From the NCBI RefSeq assembly GCF_014200755.1, contig NZ_JACHCM010000002.1, positions 62,001-126,000 of the forward strand: 64,000 nt of DNA. The letters run 5' to 3'. Of the stretch, positions 2,726-28,432 are shown piece by piece. The stretch's first letter is position 1, and every line of letters begins with the position of its first letter. The notes under the pieces were generated by a model. The model had not been told where the DNA came from, ran no database searches, and saw only the letters and a list, made by a program, of their open reading frames with translations. The translations under genes were made by a program, and so were the position numbers. The stretch is from Rhodanobacter sp. ANJX3. Lineage in GTDB: Bacteria > Pseudomonadota > Gammaproteobacteria > Xanthomonadales > Rhodanobacteraceae.

Positions 2726-5569
2726 GTGAGTACTAATCTGATCCGCGAGTTTTTCGACTCTTCGCAACTCGCTGGCGGCAACGCCGATTACGTCGAATCC
2801 CTATACGACTCCTGGCTCGCCGACGCCGCGTCGGTATCCTCCGATTGGGGTCGCTACTTCGAAACGTTCAAAGGCCGCGAATCGGGCGACGTCTCGCACG
2901 TGCCGGCCATCGCGCGCATCGAGGCCGCCCAGAAGCTGCGCCACAACGGCGGCACCGTAGTGTCGGCGGCTGACGACGAGCATGCGCGCAAGCAGGCCGG
3001 TGTACTGCGCCTGTTGACCGCTTACCGCTCGCGCGGCCACCTCGCTGCCGAACTGGATCCGCTGGGCTTGACCGAGAAAATGCCGGCGCCCGATCTCGGC
3101 CTGGCGTTTCACGGCCTGTCCGATGCCGACCTCAATACCGAATTCGATACCGGCAATTATGCCGGCGACGGCAAGCGCCTGAAGCTGGGCGAGTTGCTGA
3201 CACGACTGCAAAAAACCTACGCCAGCACGATCGGCGCCGAGTTCATGTACATCAGCAATCACGAGCAGCGCAACTGGATCTATACGCGGCTCGAGCAGCG
3301 CGCGGGCAAGAGCGGCCTGGACAAGGCCGGCAAGCAGCGCGTACTCGATTGCCTCAACGGCGCCGAAGGTCTGGAACGCTATCTGCACACCAAGTACGTC
3401 GGCCAGAAGCGCTTTTCACTGGAAGGCGGCGACAGCCTGATTCCGATGCTCGACGACGTGGTGCGCGCCGCCGGCGACAACGGTATCAGGGAACTCGTGA
3501 TCGGTATGGCCCATCGCGGCCGCCTCAACGTGCTGGTCAACATTCTGGGCAAGGCGCCGAAGACGCTGTTCGACGAATTCGAAGGCCGCTTCGAGCATCC
3601 GGACGACCCGGCACACTCGGGCGACGTGAAGTACCACATGGGCTTTTCGGCCGACATCAAGACGCCCAAGGGCGGCGTGCACGTGGCGCTGGCGTTCAAC
3701 CCGTCGCATCTGGAAATCGTCAATCCAGTGGTTTCCGGCTCGGTGCATTCGCGCCAGACCCGCCGCCGCGACACGATGCACGAAAAGTCGATGGCCGTGA
3801 TCATCCACGGCGACGCGGCCATGGCCGGCCAGGGCGTGAACATGGAGCTGTTCAACATGTCGCAGGCCCGCGGCTTCAAGATCGGCGGCAGCCTGCACAT
3901 CGTGATCAACAATCAGGTTGGTTTCACCACCTCGAACCCGCAGGACGCCCGCTCGACGCTGTACTGCACCGACCTGGCCAAAATGGTCAACGCACCGGTG
4001 TTTCACGTGAACGGCGACGACCCGGAAGCGGTGATCGAAGTCACCCGCCTCGCCTACGAATTCCGCAAGACGTTCCGCAAGGACGTCGTCATCGACCTGG
4101 TCTGCTACCGCCGCCACGGTCACAACGAGGCGGATGAGCCGTCGGCGACGCAGCCGGTGATGTATCAAATCATCCGCAAGCGCCCGACCACCCGCGATCT
4201 GTATGCGCAAAAGCTGGTCAAGGAAGGCGTACTGGCCGACGGCGAGCCGCAGAAGCAGTTCGAGGCTTACCGCGATCGCCTCGAAGCCGGTGCACCGATG
4301 GCCGACCTCGATCCGTCGCCCAACCGCGATCGCCCGGTCGACTGGGCGCGCTTCGTCGGTGGCAAGCTGTCGACGCCGGTCGACACCACGGTGCCGAAGA
4401 AAAAGCTGCAGGAGCTGGCCAACCAGATCCTCACCCTGCCTGCCGATCTCACGCTGCAGGCACGCGTCGCCAAGATCTACGACGACCGCCGCAAGATGGC
4501 TGCCGGCGAGCAGGCGGCCGACTGGGGCTTTGCCGAGAACCTGGCTTACGCGACCCTAATCGACGGCGGCCACGACCTGCGCATGGTCGGCCAGGATTCC
4601 GGCCGCGGCACGTTCTTCCACCGTCATGCCGTGCTGCATGACCAGAAAGACGGCCACACCTATCTGCCGCTGGCTACCGTGCGCGAGGACGCCGACGTCG
4701 AAGTGATCGACTCGCTGCTCAGCGAAGAAGCAGTCATGGCCTTCGAATACGGCCACTCCACCACCGATCCGGATACGCTGAATATCTGGGAAGCCCAGTT
4801 CGGCGATTTCGCCAACGGCGCGCAGGTCGTCATCGACCAGTTCATCAGCTCCGGCGAAGCGAAGTGGAATCGTCTCAGCGGCCTGGTGCTGCTGCTGCCG
4901 CACGGTTACGAGGGCCAGGGCCCGGAGCACTCCTCCGCGCGTCTGGAGCGTTTCCTGCAGCTATGCGCGATGGAAAACATGCAGGTCTGCGTGCCGACCA
5001 CGCCGGCGCAGGATTTCCACATGATCCGCCGGCAGATGCTGCGCCCGGTGCGCAAGCCGCTGATCGTGATGACGCCCAAATCGCTGCTGCGCCACAAGCT
5101 GGCCGTGTCCAGCCTGGACGAACTGGCCAGTGGCAGCTTCCAGCTGGTGATCGGCGAACACCGCGAGCTGGCGCCGAAGAAGGTGAAGCGCGTGGTGCTG
5201 TGCTCGGGCAAGGTCTACTACGACCTTCTGGAAGAGTCCGAAAAACGCGAATTGAAGGACGTCGCCATCGTCCGCGTGGAGCAGCTGTATCCCTTCCCGC
5301 GGGCCGAAGTCACCGCGGAACTGGAGAAGTACCCGGCGGCCAAGGAAGTGTTCTGGTGCCAGGAAGAGCCGATGAACCAGGGTGCCTGGTTCCAGATCCG
5401 TCATCACCTGCAGGCCTGCGTCAGCAGCAAGCACAGCTTGTCGTATGCCGGTCGCGCGCGCTCTGCGGCCCCCGCCGCCGGCCATCTCAACACGCACGTT
5501 GCCGAACAGGCTGCACTGGTCGAACAGGCGCTCGTCGCGCCGGTCGGCACGGATCACTCGGCAGAATAA
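2726..5569 (+). CDS. sucA: 2-oxoglutarate dehydrogenase E1 component
   Basis: 947 residues, close to E. coli SucA (933). The GTG at 2726 is chosen because it gives the family N terminus STNLIREFFDSSQLAGGNADY; the in-frame codons upstream are unrelated and there is only a weak GGTGGTGA ribosome site. The ThDP and Mg site is visible as GDAAMAGQG near residues 362-370, followed by INNQVGFTTS. The enzyme decarboxylates 2-oxoglutarate and passes the succinyl group to the lipoyl arm of SucB in the cytoplasmic complex. It is first in a sucA-sucB-lpdA set. The 61-base gap to sucB holds a copy of a dispersed hairpin repeat (5571-5618). Confidence 0.97.
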   Translation: MSTNLIREFFDSSQLAGGNADYVESLYDSWLADAASVSSDWGRYFETFKGRESGDVSHVPAIARIEAAQKLRHNGGTVVSAADDEHARKQAGVLRLLTAYRSRGHLAAELDPLGLTEKMPAPDLGLAFHGLSDADLNTEFDTGNYAGDGKRLKLGELLTRLQKTYASTIGAEFMYISNHEQRNWIYTRLEQRAGKSGLDKAGKQRVLDCLNGAEGLERYLHTKYVGQKRFSLEGGDSLIPMLDDVVRAAGDNGIRELVIGMAHRGRLNVLVNILGKAPKTLFDEFEGRFEHPDDPAHSGDVKYHMGFSADIKTPKGGVHVALAFNPSHLEIVNPVVSGSVHSRQTRRRDTMHEKSMAVIIHGDAAMAGQGVNMELFNMSQARGFKIGGSLHIVINNQVGFTTSNPQDARSTLYCTDLAKMVNAPVFHVNGDDPEAVIEVTRLAYEFRKTFRKDVVIDLVCYRRHGHNEADEPSATQPVMYQIIRKRPTTRDLYAQKLVKEGVLADGEPQKQFEAYRDRLEAGAPMADLDPSPNRDRPVDWARFVGGKLSTPVDTTVPKKKLQELANQILTLPADLTLQARVAKIYDDRRKMAAGEQAADWGFAENLAYATLIDGGHDLRMVGQDSGRGTFFHRHAVLHDQKDGHTYLPLATVREDADVEVIDSLLSEEAVMAFEYGHSTTDPDTLNIWEAQFGDFANGAQVVIDQFISSGEAKWNRLSGLVLLLPHGYEGQGPEHSSARLERFLQLCAMENMQVCVPTTPAQDFHMIRRQMLRPVRKPLIVMTPKSLLRHKLAVSSLDELASGSFQLVIGEHRELAPKKVKRVVLCSGKVYYDLLEESEKRELKDVAIVRVEQLYPFPRAEVTAELEKYPAAKEVFWCQEEPMNQGAWFQIRHHLQACVSSKHSLSYAGRARSAAPAAGHLNTHVAEQAALVEQALVAPVGTDHSAE

Positions 5570-5570
5570 G

Positions 5571-5618
5571 ATGTTTGGCCGCTTTATGACCTTCGCGCTC
5601 GCCCACGAGCGCTAAAAC
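5571..5618 (+). repeat. Dispersed hairpin repeat, copy A (sucA-sucB gap)
   Basis: Matches copy B (from 21838) at 32 of 42 aligned bases by eye. The core hairpin is GCGCTC (5595-5600), a six-base loop, GAGCGC (5607-5612). In the other copies the arms are GCGTTC and GAACGC, so the T-to-C change in one arm is balanced by A-to-G in the other. It could also be read as a 14-codon ORF starting ATG at 5571 (MFGRFMTFALAHER). No ribosome binding site supports translation. Confidence 0.6.
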
Positions 5619-19695: not shown

Positions 19696-21804
19696 TCAGA
19701 CGCCGGCGGCGGCTTCGTCTTCGGTCACGGCTTTCATCGACAGGCGAATACGGCCCTGCTTGTCGACCTCGAGTACCTTCACCTTGACGATATCGCCTTC
19801 CTTGAGCTTGTCGGAAACCTTCTCGACACGCTCGCTGGAGATCTGCGACACGTGCACCAGACCATCCTTGCCCGGCATGATCGTCACGAAGGCACCGAAG
19901 TCCATCAGCTTGGCGACCTTGCCCTCGTAGATGCGGCCCGGCTCGACGTCGGAAACGATCTGCTCGATGCGCTTCTTCGCCGCGTCGCCCGCTTCGCGGT
20001 TGACCGAGGCGATGATGACCGTGCCGTCGTCGTTGATGTCGATCGTGGCGCCGGTCTCTTCGGTGATCGAGCGGATGGTCGCACCGCCCTTGCCGATCAC
20101 TTCGCGGATCTTGTCCGGGTGGATCTTGATGGTGATCAGGCGCGGTGCGTACTCGCTCATCTCGAGACGCGCCGTGGTGATGACCTTGGCCATTTCGCCG
20201 AGGATGTGCAGACGGCCACGCTTGGCCTGCTCCAGCGCTACCTTCATGATCTCTTCGGTGATACCGTCGATCTTGATGTCCATCTGCAGCGCGGAGATGC
20301 CGTTGGCGCTACCGGCCACCTTGAAGTCCATGTCGCCCAGATGATCTTCGTCGCCGAGGATGTCGGACAGCACGACGAAGTCGTTGCCTTCCTTGACCAG
20401 ACCCATCGCGATACCCGCCACCGGCGCCTTCAGCGGCACGCCGGCATCCATCATCGCCAGCGAAGAACCGCACACCGAGGCCATCGACGAGGAGCCGTTG
20501 GATTCGGTGATTTCCGAAACCACGCGCACCACGTAAGGGAATTCCTCGATGCTGGGCTTCACCGCCTGCACGCCGCGCTTGGCGAGACGACCGTGGCCGA
20601 TTTCGCGCCGCTTCGGCGCACCGAAGCGGCCGGCCTCGCCCACCGAGAACGGAGGGAAGTTGTAATGGAACAGAAACGGGTCTTTCGACTCGCCTTCCGG
20701 CGCGTCGATGATCTGCGCATCGCGGGTGGTGCCGAGCGTGGCAATCACCAGCGCCTGGGTTTCACCGCGGGTGAACAGCGCCGAACCGTGCGTGCGCGGC
20801 AGCACGCCAACGCGGCAGGTGATCGGACGCACGTCGTCGAGCTGACGGCCGTCGATACGCACCTTGGTCTTGAGCACGCTGTCGCGCATGGTGTGGTATT
20901 CGAGCTCGGCGAATTCCTTCGACAGCTCGGCCGAATGCCAACCGTTCTCTTCGGCCTGACCCTTGATCGAGGCCAGCGCTTCGGCCTTGATCGCCGAGAT
21001 CGCATCGCGGCGCTGCAGCTTGTCGCGCACCTGGAAGGCCTCTTCCAGCTTGTTGCCGACGGCGCCCTTGACGGCGGCAATCAGCGACTCGTTCTGTGCC
21101 GGCGCCTGCCAGTCCCACGACGGCTTGGCCGCTTCGGACGCCAGCTCGGCAATCGCGCGGATGGCGACCTGCATCTGCTGGTGACCGAACATCACGGCAC
21201 CGAGCATCACGTCCTCGGACAACAGCTTGGCCTCGGATTCCACCATCAGCACCGCACCGCTGGTACCGGCCACGACGAGGTCGAGGTCGGACGTTTTCAG
21301 CTCGGTATGGGTCGGGTTGAGCAGGTACTGGCCGTTGGCGTAACCGACGCGCGCCGCGCCGATCGGCCCCTTGAACGGGATACCGGCCAGGCTCAGCGCG
21401 GCGGAGGCGCCGAGCAGCGCAGCGATGTCGCCGTCGACTTCAGGGTTCAGCGAAACCACCTGGGCGATGACCTGCACTTCGTTCTTGAACTCTTCCGGAA
21501 ACAGCGGACGGACCGGGCGATCGATCAGACGCGAGGTCAGCGTCTCTTTCTCGGTCGGACGGCCTTCGCGCTTGAAGAAGCCACCCGGGATGCGGCCGGC
21601 CGAATAAAACTTTTCCACGTAATCCACGGTCAGCGGGAAGAAATCCTGACCTTCCTTCTGTTTGGTCGCCGCCACGGCGGTAACCAGCACCACCGTGCCG
21701 CCCATGCTGACCATCACCGCGCCGGACGCCTGGCGGGCAATTTCGCCCGTCTCCAGAGTGACTTCGTGACTACCGTACTGGAATGACTTGGTTACTTTTG
21801 CCAC
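19696..21804 (-). CDS. pnp: Polyribonucleotide nucleotidyltransferase
   Basis: 702 residues (E. coli 711). The GTG at 21804 is chosen; AGGA lies about 11 bases before it and the protein then starts [20 protein letters not shown] as in the family. Two RNase PH domains are joined by a helical linker, then a KH domain ([20 protein letters not shown]) and an S1 domain ([18 protein letters not shown]). [19 protein letters not shown] marks the second, catalytic PH core. It degrades RNA 3' to 5' with phosphate and adds tails. The rpsO-pnp gap holds two tandem copies of a hairpin repeat; in E. coli the same gap carries the RNase III site for pnp autocontrol. Confidence 0.97.
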
Positions 21805-21817
21805 GTTGATTTGTCCT

Positions 21818-21882
21818 GAATTGAGGAGTGCGGCTATGGATGACCGCTTTTTGACCTTCGCGTTCAAGGACGAACGCAGGAC
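21818..21882 (+). repeat. Dispersed hairpin repeat, copy B (rpsO-pnp gap)
   Basis: Core hairpin GCGTTC (21860-21865), loop AAGGAC, GAACGC (21872-21877). Upstream it aligns with copy D over about 65 bases, starting GAATTGAGGAGTGCGGCTAT here. It is oriented against the direction of the surrounding genes, so in the pnp leader RNA the reverse complement appears. It starts 14 bases upstream of the pnp start codon and could affect translation or decay. Confidence 0.65.
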
Positions 21883-21890
21883 CTTAATAG

Positions 21891-21945
21891 CGCGGCCAAG
21901 AATGACCGCTTTTCGATCTCTGCGTTCACGGACGAACGCACAGGC
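21891..21945 (+). repeat. Dispersed hairpin repeat, copy C (rpsO-pnp gap)
   Basis: Tandem partner of copy B, in the same orientation and about 62 bases away. Core hairpin GCGTTC (21922-21927), loop ACGGAC, GAACGC (21934-21939), preceded by AATGACCGCTTTTCGATC. The left end is less similar to copies B and D. Confidence 0.6.
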
Positions 21946-21958
21946 TACCTACGCTGAA

Positions 21959-22228
21959 TTACCGACGCAGGCCGAGGCGTTCGATCAGGGTCTGGTAACG
22001 GGCAAGATCGCGATCTTTCAGGTAGCTCAGCAGGCGCTTGCGCTGGTTGACCAGTTTCAGCAGACCGCGGCGGGAATGATGATCCTGCTTGTGCTCTTTG
22101 AAATGGCTGGTCAGGTGGTCGATGCGGGCCGACAGCAGCGCAACCTGGACTTCCGACGAACCGGTGTCGTTGGGGACGCGGCCGAAATCAGCAATGATCT
22201 TGCCGGTTTGTTCTACGGTGAGGGACAT
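21959..22228 (-). CDS. rpsO: 30S ribosomal protein S15
   Basis: 89 residues, identical in length to E. coli S15. Clear family sequence: [40 protein letters not shown], and a basic end. It binds 16S rRNA early in 30S assembly. AAGGA lies upstream of the ATG. In E. coli S15 represses its own mRNA through a leader pseudoknot; here the leader instead shows a perfect 20-bp palindrome (22254-22300), so any control must differ in detail. It lies between truB and pnp. Confidence 0.97.
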
Positions 22229-26819: not shown

Positions 26820-28325
26820 TTAGCCGCCTTTCTCCAACCGTTCGATCATCGGCGCTCGTGCAGCCATGATCAGAGCAGCGGCCCGCGCTTCGTCCATGCC
26901 TTCGATATCGATCAGGTCGTCCACCGCCTGATCGGCCAGGTCGTCCAGCGTGCTGATTTCGCGGGCGGCCAGCGCATAGGCGGTGGCTTCGTCCATGCCC
27001 TCGAGCGTAAGCAGTTCGTCGGAAGGCTGATGGTCGCCCACGCCCTCCTCCGCTGCCAGTGCCTCGGTGAGCAGCGCATCGCGGGCGCGGGCACGGAGTT
27101 CCTCGACGATATCCTCGTCGAAACCCTCGACCGCCAGCAGCTCGGCGCTGGGAACGTAGGCGATTTCCTCGATGCTGGAAAAGCCTTCCTGCACCAGGAT
27201 AATGGCGATTTCCTGGTCGACTTCAAGCTTGTCCATGAACAGCTGGCGTGCGGCCTCCTGCTCGGACTCGCTCTTGGCGGTGACCTGATCCTGGGTCATC
27301 ACATTGAGCTGCCAGCCGGTCAGCTTGCTGGCCAGACGTACGTTCTGGCCGCCGCGACCGATCGCCTGGGACAGCTTGTCCTCGGCTACCGCGATGTCCA
27401 TCGAGTGCTTTTCTTCATCCATGATGATCGACTGCACTTCGGCCGGCGCCATCGCATTGATGACGAACTGCGCCTGGTTCTCGTGCCACAGGATAATGTC
27501 GACGCGCTCGCCGTTGAGATCGTTCGACACCGCCTGCACGCGCGAACCGCGCATGCCGATGCAGGCGCCGATCGGATCGGTGCGGCTGTCGTGTGCCAGC
27601 ACGGCGATCTTGGCGCGGTCGCCCGGATCGCGGGCGCAGCCCTTGATCTCGACCAAGCCCTGGCCCACTTCCGGCACTTCGAGCTTGAACAGCTCGATCA
27701 TGAACTCCGGTGCGGCGCGCGATACGAACAGCTGCGGGCCGCGCACTTCGGACTTCACTTCATACAAATAGCCGCGCACGCGATCGCCGACGCGGGCCGA
27801 TTCGCGCGGAATCGTCTTGTCGCGCGGAATGAATGCCTCGGCATTGCTGCCCAGGTCCAGATAGATGTTGCCGCGCTCGACGCGCTTGACGATGCCGGTG
27901 ACCAGCTCGCCAACGCGATCGGCGAAGGCGTCGACCACCTGCTGGCGCTCGGCTTCACGCACGCGCTGCACGATCACCTGCTTGGCGGCCTGCGCGGCGA
28001 TGCGGCCGAACTCGGCGTTCTCGACCTGCTGCTCGATGAATTCACCGACCTGAGCATCGGGACGCTCGTCGATCGCGTCCATCAGGCGCAGCTGGTAGGA
28101 CGGCGACTCCATCTCGCCGTCGTCGGCAATCACTTCCCAGCGGCGGAAGGTTTCGTATTCGCCGGTATCGCTGTCGATGGACACGCGAATGTCCGGCTCT
28201 TCGTCCGGATAGCGCTTCTTCGCCGCCGAAGCCAGCGCGGCTTCCATGGCTTCGAAAATGACTTCACGCGGCACGCCCTTTTCATTGGCGACGGCATCAA
28301 CGACCAGCAAAAGCTCTTTGCTCAT
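26820..28325 (-). CDS. nusA: Transcription termination/antitermination factor NusA
   Basis: 501 residues (E. coli 495). N-terminal RNA polymerase-binding domain ([20 protein letters not shown]), an S1 domain ([16 protein letters not shown]), two KH domains ([15 protein letters not shown] and [15 protein letters not shown]), and two acidic helix-hairpin-helix repeats at the C terminus ([25 protein letters not shown]), the latter typical of gammaproteobacterial NusA. It controls pausing, termination and rRNA antitermination. It follows rimP after a 112-base gap holding repeat copy D. Confidence 0.97.
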
Positions 28326-28364: not shown

Positions 28365-28432
28365 CGAGTTTTGCGTTCGTCCCTGAACGCCAGGATCACG
28401 AAGCGGCCATCCATGGCCGCACTATTCAATTC
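28365..28432 (-). repeat. Dispersed hairpin repeat, copy D (rimP-nusA gap)
   Basis: On the minus strand it starts GAATTGAATAGTGCGGCC, nearly the same as copy B. It contains two perfect hairpins: GCGGCCAT/ATGGCCGC (28403-28410 with 28413-28420) and GCGTTC/GAACGC (28373-28378 with 28385-28390). Unlike copies B and C it is in the same direction as the operon. It begins six bases after the rimP stop. Confidence 0.65.

Follow-up and report, generated by a model that had tools for sequence, protein, structure and literature searches.

A palindromic repeat with twin ANGGAY hairpin loops in Rhodanobacteraceae and the possible role of its sense copies as RsmA/CsrA ligands

The gap between rpsO and pnp in Rhodanobacter sp. 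ANJX3 holds two tandem copies of a palindromic element that recurs in the same genome and in its relatives. We hold firmly that this palindromic element is under nucleotide-level constraint, and this is the sole part of our interpretation that is held so. The reading of its role that we prefer, at slightly less than an even chance, is that of a miniature palindromic element specific to the lineage of Rhodanobacteraceae and their near relatives, in which sense copies would be RsmA/CsrA ligands and antisense copies would be kept as structure. Among the top-ranked results of open-licence literature, no report of this element was found. The window, the whole stretch of 64,000 nucleotides (nt) that was analysed, corresponds to positions 62001-126000 of contig C2 of genome G000. 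Positions are those of the window unless a contig is named.

Structure of the repeat unit and its copies in the window

The repeat unit is about 62 nt long and folds into two 6-bp hairpins, one after the other, both with an A-N-GGA-Y hexaloop. In a gap-free alignment of nine copies, the 62-column consensus runs from TTGAANAGT through hairpin 1, a linker and hairpin 2 into an A-rich end. Hairpin 1 has the consensus GCGGCC-ANGGAY-GGCCGC and hairpin 2 the consensus GCGTTC-ANGGAC-GAACGC, both loops conforming to ANGGAY, and the linker between them is 12 nt long (TTYTTGATCTTC). Tandem units abut or almost abut, with a spacing of 62 nt in the window and 62-65 nt elsewhere, and the arrays reach at least three units. 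The copies in the window and the genes next to them are listed here, with bits and E values for covariance model R1; the names pnp, rpsO and nusA were assigned by us.

5566..5617, + strand: decayed unit between sucA and sucB, sense (22.1 bits, E 0.0022, G000:C2:67566-67617)
19696..21804, - strand: pnp, downstream of the tandem pair (own ORF call; the GTG start agrees with starts in relatives)
21821..21882, + strand: unit 1 of the rpsO-pnp tandem pair (81.1 bits, E 2.7e-23, G000:C2:83821-83882; also by our own hairpin finder)
21830-21847: unit 1, hairpin 1, GCGGCT-ATGGAT-GACCGC, imperfect
21860-21877: unit 1, hairpin 2, GCGTTC-AAGGAC-GAACGC
21883..21944, + strand: unit 2, abutting unit 1 (75.1 bits, E 2.8e-21, G000:C2:83883-83944; also by our own hairpin finder)
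21892-21909: unit 2, hairpin 1, loop AAGAAT, GGA lost
21922-21939: unit 2, hairpin 2, loop ACGGAC
21959..22228, - strand: rpsO, upstream of the tandem pair (own ORF call; the query matches 145/147 family genomes)
26820..28325, - strand: nusA, downstream of the copy at 28368 (own ORF call; the N-terminal 110 aa query matches 145/147)
28368..28429, - strand: lone unit in the rimP-nusA gap, in sense with the two genes (83.2 bits, E 5.3e-24, G000:C2:90368-90429; also by our own hairpin finder)
28373-28390: rimP-nusA unit, hairpin 2, loop AGGGAC
28403-28420: rimP-nusA unit, hairpin 1, loop ATGGAT

The tandem pair (21821-21944) is antisense to both rpsO and pnp. In the decayed unit between sucA and sucB, hairpin 2 is kept (GCGCTC-GCCCAC-GAGCGC) with its GGA lost, and hairpin 1 is gone; intact copies are present in other species at the same locus group (L057, L066 and L134).

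A preliminary description of this DNA had reported a family of hairpin repeats with a tandem pair between rpsO and pnp, and all four of its copies lie where it placed them. The repeat to which it gave 55-65 bases is real, but it was cut too short, the unit of 62 nt having two hairpins. Likewise, the letters of the CCGCTTT-like lead-in are indeed conserved, but they belong to the 3' arm of hairpin 1 (CCGC) and the linker.

The pattern CCGCTTT-N5-C-N3-GCGYTC-N4-ACGARCGC, with at most three mismatches, finds exactly the four known places in the window and has no match in 100 dinucleotide shuffles of it. Over the whole genome (4.65 Mb, 23 contigs), it finds 10 places, compared with 1 for the reversed control. 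Covariance model R1 was built from nine of these ten copies, the decayed copy at 5566 being left out, and gives 34 matches at E<=1 in G000. The further copies that had been expected from a covariance search thus exist, and many more were found in the relatives. A separate finder for two successive A.GGA hairpins, blind to the stem letters and symmetric for G-U and A-C, detects 143 places in 1.15 Mb of fetched DNA, which is enriched for the element, and 4 in the same DNA reversed.

An Rfam search of the window gave only a tRNA above the gathering score and nothing at the element copies, and permissive searches of the tandem pair and five other loci gave no family at the gathering score. A single hairpin weakly matches PrrB_RsmZ (12.8 bits, gathering 44). 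A sub-threshold match at L047:1105-1229 is to the leader of ribosomal S15 (32.7 bits, with a gathering score of 39.5). A third hairpin on the 5' side (GCTCTT-NTGA-AAGAG), spotted by eye, was discarded, its pairing in the real loci being no better than when re-paired across loci.

Covariation of the stems and conservation of the loops

The two-hairpin structure has 96.3% paired cells in the nine genome copies. Three pairs are changed on both sides, a number reached by 2 of 500 shuffles, and the covariation score is reached by none of 500. All three of these pairs are located in helix 2; within this set, two-sided changes are absent from helix 1. A larger set of 124 ungapped copies, taken from named contigs, contains each of the four Watson-Crick forms at pair 43-54 of hairpin 2. 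This pair and loop 2 are outside the search pattern that collected the copies.

The letters of loop 2 in the 124 copies are A (116), N (G 40, T 36, C 26, A 22), G (122), G (119), A (120), and C (60) or T (55). The free positions of the loops are N and, less so, the sixth base, which is mostly a pyrimidine, T above all in loop 1. The two loops also recur in weaker matches to the model, where the stems and linkers differ considerably. The closing pair is C-G in 71/80 and 105/121 distinct hairpins, and in 113/135 hairpins with other stems; pairs 2-4 are more variable.

The preliminary description had also left room for a translated micro-ORF, for which these changes are a poor match. The stem changes are compensatory and heedless of codons, and a double change at the rlmD locus of our genome (GCGTTA..TAACGC) creates a stop in frame. 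The free N of loop 2 falls on the second position of the codon ANG, where it would change the amino acid, and its neighbours are nearly fixed.

Distribution across genomes and loci

Matches to R1 at E<=0.01 are found in 36/36 genomes of the genus (our own and 35 others), with 3-59 in each, and 42/60 genomes of the genus and other members of the order have matches. In a sample of the order, 64/299 genomes match at E<=1e-6, in 24/85 genera, and 53 of the 64 belong to one family. Some family members have none: of 20 listed as lacking a match, 12 are from a single genus (g27). A pattern scan found at least 113 stretches, with named matches that include Rhodanobacter, Dyella, Frateuria, Rudaea, Oleiagrimonas, Fulvimonas and Mizugakiibacter. 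One 96-base query had no match in phage and plasmid collections.

Two observations stand beside this distribution. A contig of a metagenome-assembled genome labelled Candidatus Eremiobacteraeota (L176) carries the element at 79.5 bits, possibly by a binning error. In our genome, two variant elements about 125 bp apart are identical at two distant places (L035/L036, G000:C4:56333 and 409344), which makes them probably part of a larger duplicated stretch; similar pairs are present in G025 and G031.

Presence at a given locus varies between close species. An rpsO match is present in 145 family genomes; the rpsO-pnp gap was fetched for 70 of them, and 30 of the 70, in six genera, have matches of at least 34 bits. 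The other 40 have a plain spacer of 9-26 nt (38 genomes) or a long spacer without a match (two). In four Rhodanobacter genomes, stem 1 at this locus is changed from GCGGCC to GCGCCC together with its partner. Upstream of nusA, 27/70 genomes have matches at E<1e-4. When filled and empty rpsO-pnp and mutS sites were compared by eye, no target-site duplication was readable. Species-by-species presence and absence at these two sites provide natural experiments.

The nusA leaders of five Rhodanobacter genomes (L412, L415, L416, L423 and L424) show another arrangement: a hairpin-1-like GCGGCCATCCATGGCCGC whose loop is reversed in sense, with a further hairpin after it. They match R1 weakly (25-39 bits) and would be a flipped or an independent insertion in the same gap.

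The sequence of stem 2 at one locus is largely common across genera and differs from that at other loci, and compensated variants occur. Examples are GCGGTC/GACCGC at leuC-ilvE, GCGATC/GATCGC at atpG-atpD, and GCCGAC/GTCGGC in gcvP.

Genomic places and orientation

The 246 model hits in the fetched loci fall into 176 distinct clusters and 71 independent loci. Loci were grouped by the family, side and direction of the flanking proteins, so that equal orientation within a group is by construction, and genes were named by us from protein starts except where a homology search was made. The 71 loci comprise 39 antisense, 17 sense, 6 divergent and 3 convergent ones, and 6 unclassified for want of flank. 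Antisense loci are in excess among the 56 codirectional ones (39 vs 17, p 0.005). They include ndk-rlmN, atpG-atpD, rpsO-pnp, leuD-leuB, rplT-pheS, fusA-tuf and rpoA-rplQ, among others; the sense loci include rimP-nusA, yajC-secD, leuA-ilvE, secD-secF and sucA-sucB. In genomes fetched by the flanking gene, the orientation is constant, antisense in 30/30 at rpsO-pnp and sense in 27/27 at nusA. Downstream of sense copies, the distance to the next start codon is commonly 8, 13-15 or 42 nt (range -13 to 256 in 38 values).

The units had been placed in gaps between co-transcribed genes. Most are indeed in codirectional gaps, but some copies are inside genes. With an ORF caller trained on the fetched contigs and checked on the window only, 52/176 clusters first appeared to be in genes (44 antisense, 8 sense); these are partly ORF ends, and an in-gene location is therefore claimed only for mutS, gcvP and fdsA.

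In three single-contig genomes, 80 clusters comprise 46 antisense, 17 sense, 15 in divergent or convergent gaps and 2 with no context. With the terminus assumed opposite dnaA, leading-strand genes have 39/52 antisense and 13 sense copies, and lagging-strand genes 7/11 antisense and 4 sense, numbers so small that they are compatible with one half (p 0.55). Within the limits of these counts, the antisense bias follows the gene rather than replication. Lagging-strand single-strand transposition was rejected as the source of the bias, the sense excess that it predicts being absent in lagging-strand genes, if in small numbers.

Wobble pairs and loop decay on the two strands

G-U pairs are good pairs in RNA, whereas the complementary A-C is not. 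For the core six pairs, the element strand of intergenic antisense loci has 19 A-C and 8 G-U, compared with 5 A-C and 18 G-U at sense loci. Over the intergenic codirectional copies, G-U is on the mRNA strand in 33 vs 13 distinct hairpins. At the two loci fetched by flank, with matches of at least 58 bits, pnp has 12 A-C and 3 G-U and nusA 4 A-C and 12 G-U (Fisher p 0.004), although the sequences are related, which makes this and the other p values too small, and the model threshold favours intact copies. Pooled, G-U is on the mRNA strand in 24 vs 7 (p 0.003). At 65 bits or more, the pooled counts are 12 vs 6 (p 0.24), and the contrast between pnp and nusA is not significant (p 0.34). Divergent gaps have no wobble bias (6, 7), and in-gene copies lean the opposite way, with 7 G-U and 2 A-C on the element strand.

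The presence of G-U on the mRNA strand in both orientations suggests RNA, but a mutational bias from C to T on the mRNA-like strand would have the same effect. The unpaired letters do not settle the strand. At pnp, G in the loops and flanks is changed to A in 12/180 (C to T on the mRNA side), compared with 0/102 at nusA, and the unpaired C39 is changed to T in 13/30 (G to A on the mRNA side), compared with 1/17 at nusA. The pattern fits RNA without proving selection on RNA.

The loops differ between orientations as well. With equal cut-offs of at least 58 bits, 154/160 of the A.GGA letters are kept at the sense nusA locus and 217/244 at the antisense pnp locus (Fisher p 0.009); at 65 bits or more, the numbers are 119/124 and 167/184 (p 0.11). 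A pattern-selected set has the same direction (135/136 vs 438/456, p 0.09). C to T mutation on the mRNA-like strand could explain part of this difference. The pnp loops are 89% intact, and the antisense MutS copies keep 108/112 of the letters (at their score cut-off), which does not agree with a simple decay of antisense loops.

Copies inside protein-coding genes

In the genes for MutS, glycine dehydrogenase (gcvP) and the formate dehydrogenase alpha subunit (fdsA), the element is inserted in frame and antisense, where its product is REDQEAAIHGRT or a closely similar peptide. Aligned with their best PDB homologues, the three proteins have extra residues at the inserts. One of these loci had been taken for nuoG, an identity that was abandoned for formate dehydrogenase alpha. 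In the corresponding gene of Dyella sp. EPa41 (L144:3193-3434), there are about four tandem in-frame copies.

The mutS site was compared in 70 of the 142 genomes with a MutS match, and extra residues are present in 20 (15 flagged by script, five by eye). Of these inserts, 17 give model matches of at least 29 bits, and the 16 intact ones span nine genera. The mutS loci L384, L403 and L407 (of G384, G125 and G293) and L388 (of G209) comprise extra residues whose DNA has lost the fold of the element, and one partial deletion. A tree of 66 MutS genes requires 15 gains or losses of the insert, at least eight of them forced by well-supported branches. Its presence is hardly clustered, since 89/500 label shuffles are as low as 15 changes. 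Repeated precise loss, exchange of mutS alleles between species, or repeated insertion at the same site may have given this pattern.

The 16 intact inserts were collected by protein homology, not by DNA. The identity of codons for the same residue is 973/1069 (0.91) in the inserts and 6731/10116 (0.665; 107 columns) in the flanks, and the value for the inserts is reached by none of 2000 random sets of flank columns. In contrast, the amino-acid identity is 0.742 in the inserts vs 0.813 in the flanks. GC3 is 106/192 (55%) vs 1466/1685 (87%). Omission of the four decayed inserts favours conservation; for all 20, the codon identity is 0.884 vs 0.662 (again 0/2000) and the amino-acid identity 0.611 vs 0.782. 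Earlier codon counts (347/347 for mutS, 98/102 for gcvP and 98/98 for fdsA) were set aside, most of those loci having been chosen by a DNA pattern that fixes the majority of these letters.

In the MutS inserts, it is the nucleotide letters and the folding, and not the encoded protein, that are conserved. The comparison of synonymous with non-synonymous changes that the preliminary description had proposed thus speaks against a peptide. Recent spread or gene conversion could mimic nucleotide constraint; stem 2, however, is locus-specific.

Sense copies as candidate RsmA/CsrA ligands

The high-affinity Csr/Rsm ligand is described as a hexaloop of the form ANGGAX that sits immediately on its stem; N and X are looped out, and there is stacking on a closing C-G pair (PMC4005645). 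The loop and the C-G closing pair of the element agree with this published consensus. A hexaloop of this form directly on the stem is found in loop 2 of the 124 copies and at the unselected loci pnp, nusA and MutS. On the other hand, most copies are antisense, which leaves the majority without a CsrA ligand on the mRNA and is the main objection, and a GGA loop is on the transcribed strand only in the sense copies (17/56 codirectional loci). The RsmA-ligand reading is therefore restricted to sense copies, for which we propose it with moderate confidence.

Our preferred reading starts from what is observed of the element: a few to dozens of copies per genome, two hairpins (four or more in tandem) and in-frame insertion in three protein genes. 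Under this reading, the element would be read as RNA inside operon transcripts. A sense copy would present twin ANGGA hexaloops, usually C-G closed, as a two-site RsmA/CsrA ligand that tunes the next gene. At antisense copies (39/56, including the tandem pair in the window), the mRNA would carry the complementary loops, and the hairpins may be kept as a spacer or stabilising structure, with loops that decay faster. If sense copies do bind RsmA, it would follow that repeats can bring genes into a post-transcriptional network.

Of the 147 family genomes, 144 have a csrA gene, which occurs equally in those without element matches, and its presence is thus uninformative on the element. The genome of the window has a second csrA gene (G000:C5:394346-394501, 81.4 bits).

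Alternative explanations

The strongest alternative, a serious one that still falls short of probable, is that the element is only a selfish mobile DNA repeat of the REP or RPE sort, the ANGGAY hairpins being the single-stranded DNA substrate of some enzyme and any host function incidental. The excess of antisense copies would then reflect survival, as sense copies would burden mRNAs with RsmA sites or false starts. As expected for such a repeat, copies of both orientations, and those within genes too, retain their structure and loops, and the free stems have the look of structure-specific single-strand recognition. RPEs offer a precedent (PMC10969869). The tandem arrays (34 pairs and 7 triples among the 176 clusters, and about four units in L144) and the many changes forced on the MutS tree point the same way. 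However, stems that are locus-specific and common across genera point to mostly ancient copies, and a selfish copy in decay would not be expected to retain pairing, loops and synonymous positions. Nor does the orientation follow replication, as far as the few lagging-strand genes tell. As for an enzyme, Y1_Tnp is found in 5/5 genomes (16 matches), but no R1 match at E<=1 is present in the 8 of the 16 Y1 transposase loci that were fetched, and mobilisation by a RAYT was rejected on these grounds. In G000, G025, G027 and G031, the nearest R1 match among those listed is about 50 kb or more from every Y1, or on another contig.

A mobile palindromic element with a twin RsmA/CsrA ligand core, dispersed through housekeeping operons across a bacterial family, is an unlikely variant. 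A sense insertion would wire the next gene into the Csr network, and antisense or in-gene insertions would be tolerated, the ligand being hidden. Such an element would be a dispersible regulatory site at the RNA level, with orientation deciding between regulation and silence.

A rather improbable explanation is that the elements are intercistronic hairpins which stabilise the operon mRNA or take part in its processing, and that no protein reads the loops. The wobble pairs, with G-U on the mRNA strand in both orientations, would agree with it, and at rpsO-pnp the stems are better conserved than the loops (mean entropy 0.27 and 0.31 vs 0.6 and 0.69). At nusA, in contrast, the loops (0.24 and 0.08) are more conserved than the stems (0.3 and 0.5). 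Moreover, A, GGA and the closing C-G pair hardly vary, whereas the N between A and GGA is free, copies are present inside three genes, and codirectional gaps are not enriched (56/65 loci vs 558/679 adjacent gene pairs on the same contigs).

It is very unlikely that the elements are transcribed against the operons, as antisense-strand RNAs that form a distributed RsmA sponge. For this, the loops match the Csr/Rsm ligand, 39/71 loci are antisense, and a single hairpin weakly matches PrrB_RsmZ, but at intergenic antisense loci the wobble is on the mRNA strand and not on the ANGGA strand, and the antisense pnp loops decay faster than the nusA loops.

As the main reading, a translated micro-ORF or peptide module is refuted. 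In its favour, the tandem units have an open frame in common, a Shine-Dalgarno-like GAGGAG is directly before ATG in 2/9 aligned copies (L009 and L016), and the opposite strand of the element is translated, though only where it sits inside the mutS, gcvP or formate dehydrogenase gene, but the ATG is missing in copies such as L007, L011 and L014, a compensatory change gives a stop in L013, the free base is at a second codon position, and synonymous codons in MutS are far more conserved than the protein.

Comparison with known systems

Xanthomonas campestris belongs to the same bacterial order as Rhodanobacter. Its RsmU is an RsmA-binding RNA cut from the 3' UTR of the comEA mRNA, with four predicted GGA motifs, and changing all four does not abolish RsmA binding (PMC7694677). 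The element differs from RsmU, which is a single locus for which the available part of the source describes no repeat family (PMC7694677).

The likeness of the element to the TwoAYGGAY motif, two AYGGAY loops, is judged by name alone. This motif is in Rfam, and it is absent from the Rfam matches of the tandem pair at E<=10 and of five other loci at E<=1. It is a candidate RNA motif (Weinberg 2010) with a table entry that names human gut, gamma-Proteobacteria and Clostridiales (PMC2864571).

REP sequences with their RAYTs are alike in being genome-wide palindromes between genes, some of them within genes (PMC3733652, the available text of which does not mention Rhodanobacter, Dyella or Frateuria). 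In comparison with REPs tagged by GTAG/CGTC, the hairpins of the element are in direct order, and the consensus of the 62-column alignments, read by eye, has no such tag.

Csr/Rsm ligands, in RsmZ-type sRNAs and leader sites, have ANGGAX on a C-G closed stem, variable N and X, and several sites in a row, as in the element (PMC4005645). The element, on the other hand, is not an sRNA gene, has many copies and is mostly antisense to the operon, and its ligand status is predicted from sequence.

The nearest kind are the RPEs of Rickettsia, to which the element is likened by description and not by sequence. Both are short, lineage-bound palindromic repeats with many copies per genome, inserted in frame inside unrelated genes with a conserved peptide in common (PMC10969869). 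The element differs in its length (62 nt vs about 150 bp for RPEs), its two hairpins with their fixed ANGGAY loops, its mostly intergenic position and its bacterial class. If it is kept at the nucleotide level inside MutS and other core enzymes, it would be an example, beyond Rickettsia, of a repeat that makes itself part of proteins.
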